This document shows, in pieces, positions 13,343 through 45,078 of a DNA stretch of 46,762 nucleotides. The notes below the pieces were generated by a model that saw only the letters and a list, made by a program, of their open reading frames with translations, had not been told where the DNA came from and ran no database searches. A program made the position numbers and the translations under genes. The stretch's first letter is position 1, and the number at the start of each line of letters is the position of its first letter. Location of the stretch: NCBI RefSeq assembly GCF_900099925.1, contig NZ_FNDE01000030.1, forward strand, positions 1-46,762, read 5' to 3'. The DNA is from Aneurinibacillus thermoaerophilus (GTDB lineage Bacteria; Bacillota; Bacilli; Aneurinibacillales; Aneurinibacillaceae).

Positions 13343-13391
13343 GACTGATTACACCTCCCCATCCTCGTGGTTCCAACGGTGCTTTCTTTAT

Positions 13392-13541
13392 GGCAGGTCT
13401 CCTGGCTTACGGATCATCGCTTCTCTATACCTTCCCATTTCAGTCTTATGAAACAGTGGTGAATCCAAGAGTTGCTCCCCGTTCACAGTGGCGGGACCGC
13501 GCCGGACTTTCACCGGTCTTCCCTTTTAAGTGTTTACCTGA
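13392..13541 (-). ncRNA. cobalamin (B12) riboswitch upstream of nrdAB
   Basis: The minus strand carries the canonical cobalamin aptamer: GGGAAGACCGGTGAAAGTCC, then the B12 box GCGGTCCCGCCACTGTGA, and at the 3' side GCCAGGAGACCTGCC. The closing P1 helix CAGGT/ACCTG is present. It sits in the 5' leader of nrdA and is followed by intrinsic terminators, so adenosylcobalamin should switch off this B12-independent reductase. This logic is known from other bacteria that also own a B12-dependent class II reductase, which is not seen in this window. Confidence 0.95.
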
Positions 13542-13584
13542 TCTCTTAGTAAGATAAAAAATCATGCAAACACACCATAAAGCT

Positions 13585-13600
13585 TACCTATATTTAGTTT
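13585..13600 (-). promoter_or_regulatory. NrdR-like box (promoter-proximal)
   Basis: TACCTATATTTAGTTT matches the 16-bp NrdR box (acaCwAtATaTwGtgt) at about 11 positions, including most of the central core. It lies exactly 31 bp from a better match at 13616-13631, the three-helical-turn spacing typical of paired NrdR boxes. Confidence 0.5.
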
Positions 13601-42492: not shown

Positions 42493-44259
42493 TTATAATT
42501 TGAATTTATCTACAGACAATTGCAATTCCTGCGCAAGATTTCTAAGAGTAATAGTGAAACTTGACAATTCATCTATTAGAGAGGATTGTTTTTCAATAGC
42601 TGATGCGATATTTTCTGAACCAACGGCTACTTCTTTGGCTACCCCAGCCATTTCCTGTATAGAAGCCGTTACCTGTTCTGCTCCTGCAGATAATTGCTGG
42701 GAAGCTGCTGACACTTCCTGGATTTGATTGTTCACATGTTGGAAGGCTATTCTAATACTCTCTAAAGATTTGCCCGCCTCATTGATAACCGCCATTCCAG
42801 ACTCAACTTCCTCCGCTTCTTTCTGCATACCAGATATAACTTTACGAGTATGCTCCTGCATTTGCTTAATAAACCCAGTAATCCCCTCTGCCGATTTTTT
42901 CGATTGTTCAGCAAGTTTCCTTACTTCATCTGCTACAACCGCAAAACCTTTTCCATGTTCTCCAGCACGCGCTGCCTCAATAGCCGCATTTAAGGATAAT
43001 AAATTTGTTTGTTCTGTAATCTCCGTAATTACATCTGTAATTCTCTCAATTTCCTTAGAATGGTCCTCTAGTTTTTTAACCAACGAAGTCGTATCATCAA
43101 CTGATTTGCTAATAGATTGCATCTGTTGAATTGCCTTGGATAGCGCTTCATTTCCATTTTCCACTTCTTTCACCGAGCTTTCAGATGTTTCCGCCACTCT
43201 AGAGGATGAATCAGCAATACGTTCAATTCCTATGGCTGTTTCCTCCATCGTACTTGCCACCTCTTCCGCTGTTTGAGAAGAGGCTTCTGCTCCTTGGTTC
43301 AGCCCCTCAACAGTGATAGCAATTTGCTTGCTGGCTTCATCTGTTTGTTCCATATTTTTTATTAGTTGTTCCGATAAAGCAATAACATGCATACTGGCGT
43401 CATTTACTTTTTTGATAATGCCTTTTAGGCCTGTTACCATTTCATTAATCGCATTAGCAAGTTCTCCTATCTCGTCTTGAGACTTTGTATCAATCGTCTT
43501 TACCGTTAAGTCTCCTTCACTTATCTTTTTCGCTATACTACTAACATACAAAATAAGTTTGATTTTTTTATTAAATAACCATATAAATACACCCATACAA
43601 ATTAGTGAAAATAAAGCAATACCTCCGGCTATAACCCCTTTTATAAGAGGAAGAGAGCCATAAAATTCTTCTGGATATACAGCAATACCAAGTGTCCATC
43701 CCCAAGGTTTGTAATACTCTACATAACTCATTTGTGGTCGTTCTTTAGCCTCGTCTTGATTTTTCCACGTATAGGTTAATAACCGTTCGTTAGGATCGCT
43801 ATTTTTACCAGCTTTCACAAGATCTTGTATCAAATAAGAACCATCTTCAAGCTTGAAATCCTTTTGATTTTGTCCTTCATATCCTAGCGGGTGCATAACT
43901 GCAATGTAATTGTCATCATAAGCCCACATATAGCCTTCTTTTTTATAGATAAAATGCGATTTACTTAAATCCCGCTTTTTCTTATCTTCTAACAACGGAC
44001 CGTTGATATAATCCTTTGCTCTGTTTTGGGCTTCTTCCAATGTAAGATGGCCATTTTTAACTTCTTCATCCATTACCTGAATTATCGTGATTGCACCATC
44101 AACAATTTGATGTAAATGCTCAATACCTGCTTTCTCAAGTTCGCTTTTTGCAGAGTAATAAGTAACAACACCTACCAGAGAGCTTGAAATCATGATTGAA
44201 ATGGTTACTGCTATTATTAATTTCCATCTTATACTAAAAATAATTTTCCTTTTTATCAT
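42493..44259 (-). CDS. Methyl-accepting chemotaxis protein with single Cache domain
   Basis: 588 residues. Membrane helix (about 10-32), extracellular single-Cache ligand domain (about 35-205, with [18 protein letters not shown] and [14 protein letters not shown]), second helix (about 207-232), HAMP (about 233-285), and a long signalling coiled coil with the hairpin tip [38 protein letters not shown]. It senses an external small molecule and controls CheA. ATG at 44259 follows AAAAGGAGGAT. A c-di-GMP-I riboswitch and terminator lie in its 440-nt leader. Confidence 0.95.
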
Positions 44260-44419
44260 AGTAATATCCTCCTTTTATAAAGACTGTTTTACCTTCCTTA
44301 TATTTGCGTATCGAGCGATATATTGTCTTACTATTTAATTGATGTTTCCTAGCTACCAAACTGAACGTATATCTGTCTATTCCTTCACTAATTACTATGT
44401 ACTGAATGCTAAATCTCAC
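44234..44419 (-). CDS. Short reading frame with helix-turn-helix-like segment, in the chemoreceptor leader
   Basis: 61 residues from a GTG at 44419, overlapping the chemoreceptor start by 26 bp. The middle ([20 protein letters not shown]) reads like a transposase-type HTH. The ribosome site AAAGGGA directly abuts the GTG, which is too close. It may be a remnant of an IS N-terminus or a small regulator translated after the riboswitch terminator. Doubtful. Confidence 0.3.
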
Positions 44420-44496
44420 TCCCTTTCATTATGACTCTATATTGATAAACAAACTACATAAATACGATACGAAGGCTAGGCTTATCGCTACTTATG

Positions 44497-44550
44497 TAAA
44501 AAACAGAAAAGGCCATACCGCTCCCTAAGATTACCGAATGCGGAATAGCC
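44497..44550 (-). terminator. riboswitch-controlled terminator ahead of the chemoreceptor gene
   Basis: Minus strand GGCTATTCCGC...GCGGTATGGCC, a long stem (about 10 pairs with minor mismatches) followed by TTTTCTGTTTTTT. Its loop contains ATTCGGTAATC, complementary to the 3' end of the c-di-GMP aptamer (GGTTACCGAA), so alternative pairing is possible. The plus strand also has a T run, so it may act both ways. Confidence 0.8.
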
Positions 44551-44583
44551 TTTTTTTAAATTCATCAAACTTTTTAAAAAGAT

Positions 44584-44668
44584 TTCGGTAACCCGGCTGT
44601 CATCATTCACATTGAACCTTAGACCCGTGGCTTTGCGTCCTTATCTTTCGATAAGTTTGCCTTTATCG
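44584..44668 (-). ncRNA. c-di-GMP-I (GEMM) riboswitch
   Basis: Minus strand: GGCAAAC, a stem CTTATC-GAAA-GATAAG with a GNRA loop, GGACGCAAAGCCACGGGTCT, the tetraloop-receptor-side stem, and the closing GCCGGGTTACCGA. These are the conserved core bases and joining regions of the c-di-GMP-I aptamer. It lies between a sigma-A promoter and the chemoreceptor, with a terminator in between. Confidence 0.93.
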
Positions 44669-44710
44669 TTAAATTAAGTTTTGCAGTTAATTAGCACTTA
44701 TATCTCTTAC

Positions 44711-44739
44711 ATTATAGTCATAAAGTTCCATTACTTCAA
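44711..44739 (-). promoter_or_regulatory. sigma-A promoter for the riboswitch-chemoreceptor transcript
   Basis: Minus strand TTGAAG (44734-44739), exactly 17 bp, TATAAT (44711-44716). Transcription should begin near 44704, about 40 nt before the aptamer. Confidence 0.7.
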
Positions 44740-45001: not shown

Positions 45002-45078
45002 TTTAACATAACACGCAAGAAGTCCCCTTCCTTCACGCCTCCGGCGTAGGTGGGGGATGAATCGCGTGTTATGTTAAA
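45002..45078. repeat. long perfect inverted repeat with inner hairpin, IS200/IS605-end-like
   Basis: TTTAACATAACACGC (45002-45016) and GCGTGTTATGTTAAA (45064-45078) are perfect 15-bp arms. The 47-nt interior contains AAGTCCCC...GGGGGATGAATC and the stem ACGCC-TCC-GGCGT. The inner part resembles the terminal hairpin of IS200/IS605-type elements, but no transposase or TnpB gene is present. Confidence 0.6.

Follow-up and report, generated by a model that had tools for sequence, protein, structure and literature searches.

Two class I c-di-GMP riboswitches are the closest described counterparts of the locus studied here. Bc1 of the Bacillus cereus group precedes MCP genes (McpE). In the excerpted text of its report, Bc1 is an ON switch in a reporter and gives no native response, McpE being unchanged by c-di-GMP (PMC11218506). 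Cd1, which precedes the flgB operon of C. difficile, is described in the corresponding excerpt as an OFF switch in which aptamer and terminator coexist against an antiterminator (PMC9262584). The arrangement of a GEMM aptamer, a terminator and an MCP gene is already known from Bc1 of the Bacillus cereus group, and our locus adds another one.

The DNA stretch that we analysed as a whole, called the window in the following, is 46,762 nucleotides long and is a draft-genome contig from the Aneurinibacillus group. On its minus strand follow, in this order, a promoter, a GEMM aptamer, a terminator, a decayed HTH ORF and a chemoreceptor gene. As far as the excerpt on Bc1 goes, both loci have a class I aptamer, a terminator-bearing expression platform and an MCP downstream. 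The expression platform of Bc1 contains two terminators at a distance of 28 bp, whereas in the window one terminator was seen, together with a conserved 11-base antiterminator pairing. Moreover, unlike Bc1, the locus type of the window has a small HTH gene or its relict before the receptor (PMC11218506). Cd1 and the window are alike in that the antiterminator takes an aptamer strand and the target is related to motility; in the parts of the reports at hand, the target of Cd1 is a flagellar operon and switching off was measured, whereas the OFF action in the window is predicted from sequence (PMC9262584, PMC6366702). The locus is a further GEMM-MCP switch, and its predicted antiterminator is clear, which is useful as Bc1 gave no native response. 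In our reading, the c-di-GMP-I riboswitch probably turns off transcription of the chemoreceptor gene when c-di-GMP is high.

Out of three cmscan matches in the window, one is a full-length c-di-GMP-I (GEMM-I) aptamer at 44584-44671 on the minus strand. It covers model positions 1-87 of 87 of RF01051 and scores 92.9 bits (E 2.2e-17), the gathering score being 35. The original prediction of a canonical GEMM aptamer, for which an Infernal search with the c-di-GMP-I model had been named as a check, is thus borne out. The base preceding CAAA in this aptamer is a G, which we take to be the counterpart of G20 of Vc2, presumably the position separating the c-di-GMP from the cGAMP types. For a cGAMP-bound GEMM riboswitch of class I, the available text names a G20A change. 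The window aptamer is predicted to bind c-di-GMP, for which a source is likely, since three GGDEF domains above and one below the Pfam cut-off were found in the same genome.

Between the window and A. danicus the aptamer evolves more slowly than its flanks. There are 5 mismatches in the 88 positions of the aptamer, compared with 17 of 80 in the promoter region, 13 of 79 from the aptamer end to the terminator, and 59 of 250 plus 62 gap columns from the terminator to the receptor. Four of the five aptamer changes form two compensated pairs, as read from the alignment, one of them in the GAAA hairpin (U-A to C-G) and one at the outermost end of the second arm (A-U to C-G).

Upstream of the aptamer lies a probable sigma-A promoter, TTGAAG-17-TATAAT (44711-44739, minus strand), which matches 10 of 12 consensus positions. 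Its score is weak when taken alone, as shuffling the 80 nt ahead of the aptamer gave an equally good site in 117 of 2000 cases and 10 promoter-like sites were found in 2 kb where 9.9 were expected. The promoter is probably real, judged by its position and its conservation: hexamers and spacing are identical in A. danicus, and the A. terranovensis counterpart, TTGAAA-17-TATAAT, has one change. At the A. aneurinilyticus and G003 loci the best promoter scores were 7/12 and 8/12, and no promoter is recognisable there. The switch had further been proposed to act in addition to sigma-D. Using TAAA-N14-16-GCCGATAA, which we assume as the sigma-D consensus, the best match in the 524 nt upstream of the receptor has 9 of 12 positions, which 214 of 300 shuffles reach or exceed; as this is no better than chance, we rejected sigma-D control.

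The receptor gene itself (42493-44259, minus strand) encodes 588 aa with the architecture sCache_2-HAMP-MCPsignal. All three domains score above their Pfam cut-offs, which places the protein among the MCPs. Protein identity to the related receptors is 90% for A. danicus, 87% and 77% for two A. terranovensis copies and 80% for A. aneurinilyticus.

Between the aptamer and the receptor we found the intrinsic terminator that had been claimed, as a hairpin of -21.0 kcal/mol with a 10-nt loop, followed by a T-rich tail (44507-44554, minus strand). RF01051, the fold and Pfam together uphold the order of aptamer, terminator and Cache chemoreceptor. The 96-nt stretch containing the terminator has a fold z of -2.0, with 8 of 200 shuffles as good, and a 39-nt piece in which the stem is clipped short has a z of -0.96. 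A hairpin scan limited to loops of 3-8 nt did not list the terminator, its loop having 10 nt. The terminator is present in three related loci, with changed stem letters. About 250 nt separate it from the receptor, and a second hairpin stands behind it (44454-44499, minus strand; z -3.09, 1 of 200 shuffles as good). Gaps break up this second hairpin when the locus is aligned with A. danicus; it could be an RNA element or an operator.

The candidate switching element consists of strand B, the 3' aptamer strand GGGTTACCGAA (44584-44594, minus strand), and strand C, TTCGGTAATCT (44528-44538, minus strand), which covers the upper 5' terminator stem and the loop. B can pair with C over 11 uninterrupted bases, with G-U at two positions, and none of 200 shuffles of the downstream region does as well. 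In four loci, which form two close pairs (window, A. danicus L010, A. aneurinilyticus L016/L007 and G003 L017), 44 of 44 B:C cells are paired, compared with 18-55% when the partner is slid by 1-3 columns. Nine of the 11 columns of C are invariant in the four loci, though the surrounding stem and loop bases differ. Variation affects one side in two of the 11 pairs and both sides in none. The support for B:C is therefore conservation, not covariation, and a shuffle control of the covariation is uninformative because the columns hardly vary.

A pairing of the 3' aptamer strand with the terminator loop had been part of the original prediction. The pairing stood, with its 11 conserved pairs, but its restriction to the loop did not. 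In the fold predicted for the window, the first three bases of C (TTC) also form part of the terminator stem at its upper end, as does TTCGG in three related loci, so that B competes with both stem and loop. Capture of the terminator loop as the sole mechanism was dropped for this reason. We also rejected a general rule of long B pairing for GEMM terminators, since the 11-base pairing occurs in 4 of the 54 loci (out of 75) in which a scripted search found a hairpin, the calls being rough and some lying inside coding sequence. These four loci (L001, L010, L016 and L017) are all of one locus type. One further locus, L068, has a 9-base pairing (0 of 200 shuffles), a few others lie at 0.02-0.05 and most at chance.

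With the RNA 3' end placed at 44524, before the 3' arm of the terminator, the B:C fold and the aptamer fold have nearly equal energies of -32.6 and -32.3 kcal/mol, so ligand could tip the choice. At 3' ends of 44530 and 44518 the aptamer fold is ahead by 1.6 and 0.6 kcal/mol, and for the full leader the aptamer plus terminator reaches -46.0 kcal/mol versus -40.5 for B:C, in an energy model that covers neither tertiary contacts nor ligand. As both the full-leader and the flanking energies favour the aptamer, the antiterminator could prevail only through kinetics. In the complete leader, the fold of lowest energy (-46.0 kcal/mol) holds the aptamer helices and the terminator together. The locus thus has a terminator that is able to coexist with the aptamer and a conserved alternative pairing that excludes the aptamer, which are the features expected of an OFF switch.

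Ligand binding and termination are predicted from these parts. The OFF direction is inferred from the pairing topology, in which the aptamer is compatible with the terminator and B:C competes with each of them, as described for Cd1. Transcription would start near 44704, as judged from the promoter, and the aptamer would be made first. With c-di-GMP bound, the aptamer would keep B, leaving C free, so that the terminator could fold and transcription would stop near 44505. Without ligand, B would pair with C once C is made, the base of the aptamer would break and the terminator would be delayed, and the polymerase would read on into the receptor gene. The receptor would in this way be made at low c-di-GMP, the motile state.

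The small ORF between terminator and receptor had been overlooked in the earlier reading. It is the decayed form of an HTH gene of about 50 aa, with a GTG-started frame that overlaps the receptor start (44234-44419, minus strand; profile match 44425-44270). The profile match of E 5.6e-21 is not independent, as the window copy is one of the 16 rows of the profile. The copy has no good start, its N-terminal part is missing, and the conserved Trp of the YRW core is changed to Ser, so that it lacks both the intact core and the usable start of a complete HTH. In Pfam it reaches 21.8 bits for HTH_28 (cut-off 25) and 14.8 bits for HTH_Tnp_1 (cut-off 24.1). At the A. aneurinilyticus locus a 57-aa ORF stands between terminator and receptor, scores above the cut-off for both HTH_Tnp_1 and HTH_28, and has a stop that overlaps the receptor start. 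In A. danicus the receptor is intact and the counterpart HTH frame has a stop in its N-terminal part.

Different parts of the operon have been lost at the related loci. The operon is intact in A. aneurinilyticus, with the HTH gene between riboswitch and receptor, and the ancestral operon probably also carried such a gene ahead of the receptor. In the window and in A. danicus the HTH gene was lost, with switch and receptor retained; the riboswitch would here have been kept for the receptor. G003 kept the aptamer, the terminator and the HTH gene, its receptor remnant being a start-like stretch that breaks off, and a search of this genome for the receptor at E 1e-150 gave no match. Nor is there a receptor gene behind the aptamers of L043 and L017. 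A. terranovensis kept the receptor (the copy with 87% identity), and its leader has only the 5' half of the aptamer. Neither a terminator nor an HTH ORF was found in this leader by sequence and alignment, and neither of the two receptor contigs is among the RF01051 matches. This series, in which the operon is intact or has lost the HTH gene, the receptor or the switch, suggests that the target of the riboswitch changed by gene decay.

Three other readings of the locus have to be weighed. The riboswitch might be an ON switch, in which c-di-GMP binding stops termination and raises receptor expression. The class I riboswitch Bc2 is described as an ON switch (PMC6366702, in the part available), Bc1 in front of its MCP gene switched a reporter on in B. 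subtilis according to the excerpt of its report (PMC11218506), and the full-leader energies favour the terminator without ligand. We nevertheless regard an ON switch as unlikely, since the conserved B:C pairing opposes the aptamer, the aptamer helices coexist with the terminator in the lowest-energy fold, and an unsystematic look revealed no pairing by which the bound aptamer could break the terminator. It is likewise unlikely that the riboswitch is a relict, which binds its ligand and no longer alters receptor expression or is cancelled by other elements. Such a state would resemble Bc1, which in the available text bound c-di-GMP without changing its receptor (PMC11218506), and it would suit the decay of the adjoining HTH ORF and the A. 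terranovensis receptor, which has neither the 3' half of the aptamer nor the terminator before it. The slower evolution of the aptamer compared with its flanks, the compensated changes against A. danicus and the retained B:C pairing argue against this reading.

The switch might instead mainly serve the small HTH ORF, still translated from its GTG, with the receptor as a passenger. The HTH core of the window frame contains no stop, G003 keeps the HTH gene and lost the receptor, and 12 aptamers in relatives stand 12-20 nt before such an ORF. However, the ORF in the window has lost its N-terminal part, carries Ser for Trp and falls below both Pfam cut-offs, and the A. danicus frame holds a stop. 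Furthermore, the relict pair of window and A. danicus has a dN/dS of 0.195/0.336, compared with 0.051/0.415 for the first part (about 373 codons) of the receptor in the same pair. We therefore consider this reading very improbable and retain an OFF switch for the receptor as the favoured one.

The small HTH family is a novel lead and the most interesting point at this locus. In 11 genomes of the bacterial family, with 150 candidates scored per genome, the RF01051 survey gave at least 75 matches in 10 genomes, 74 of them above the cut-off. A profile of the small HTH proteins was built from 16 ORFs, every one of which was picked for following a c-di-GMP-I aptamer, and it gave 61 matches at E 1e-6 in all 11 genomes. 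Out of the 41 matches at E 1e-16 or better, 20 have an aptamer upstream on their own strand. The distance is 12-20 nt for 12 of them, 108-213 nt for six and about 475 nt for the remaining two; among the 20 weaker matches there is no such case. As 16 of the 20 aptamer-linked matches are seeds of the profile, it is fairer to count the 4 aptamer-linked ones among the 25 matches that were not seeds, against a chance expectation of about 0.01 of the 25. Two of these four correspond to seeds from another genome (C99 of G001 and C50:4344 of G002). The other 21 strong matches have no aptamer (the neighbourhoods of 13 were inspected).

The family appears to be specific to the lineage. A survey of 299 Bacilli genomes at E 1e-16, with at most 22 candidates scored per genome, found it in ten, each of them from the bacterial family of Aneurinibacillus; outside that family no match reached this threshold. 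The order-level survey at E 1e-14 found it in 10 of 15 genomes, again all in the same bacterial family. Three intact small ORFs of relatives score above both cut-offs for the transposase-type domains HTH_Tnp_1 (PF01527) and HTH_28 (PF13518). Unlike the transposase proteins with these domains, the small ORFs are about 50-62 aa long with little beyond the HTH, occur in one bacterial family (E 1e-16) and often stand behind aptamers. They also include four pairs of intact GEMM-linked copies whose dN/dS values point to purifying selection (0.019/0.663, 0.054/0.933, 0.049/0.464 and 0.100/0.670, each resting on about 25 synonymous sites). No same-strand frame of 90 codons follows the HTH ORF within 1.5 kb of the aptamer at L017 and L028, or within 800 nt at L019, L021, L075 and L076.

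Their HTH domain suggests a role of the small proteins as regulators. We give about even chances to the broader proposal that, in the family of Aneurinibacillus, c-di-GMP-I riboswitches control lineage-specific stand-alone HTH proteins (about 50-62 aa), which would be c-di-GMP-gated regulators and probably domesticated transposase-type DNA-binding domains. Their genes would lie directly behind the aptamer, with control probably at translation, or after a terminator, one locus type having them in a chemoreceptor operon; the locus in the window would be such an operon after decay of the HTH gene. If the small proteins do act as such regulators, they would extend c-di-GMP signalling in Gram-positive bacteria by a new output layer. 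Among the titles listed in the literature search, none dealt with small HTH genes that follow c-di-GMP riboswitches.

Two side observations concern the neighbours of the small HTH genes. At L027 and L034 a c-di-GMP-I aptamer is followed by a CheY-like gene and then by the small HTH ORF, about 475 nt behind the aptamer. In five genomes (L101, L102, L103, L104 and L110) an aptamer-less small HTH gene stands behind a short ORF whose N-terminus is signal-like and whose C-terminus is a conserved RLPYQH, like a secreted signal peptide.

At least four c-di-GMP-I aptamers are present in the genome of the window, where 150 of 376 first-look candidates were scored. Besides the one described above, an aptamer on C61 has a small HTH ORF 108 nt further on, one on C69 precedes a 105-codon ORF, and one on C7 precedes a pyridoxal-dependent decarboxylase gene. 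The decarboxylase gene overlaps the next gene, which encodes a second MCP-type receptor (L122, C7:73000-77600), so 2 of the 15 MCP signalling domains of this genome are found behind c-di-GMP-I aptamers. Decarboxylase-like genes are found behind aptamers at L014 and L015 too (Pfam was run for L003 alone). Among 10 receptor-looking proteins downstream of aptamers, seven have an MCPsignal match in Pfam; the other three, which were clipped by the stretch or frame examined, have HAMP and Cache matches.

Elsewhere in the window, both on the minus strand, a Cobalamin riboswitch is found at 13375-13594 (123.6 bits) and the 5' end of a 16S rRNA gene lies at the contig edge (1-237, 182.3 bits). A stretch of about 65 nt at 45002-45066 has whole or partial copies with 88-97% identity at 12 further places in the genome and looks like what we take to be the end of an IS200/IS605-type element.
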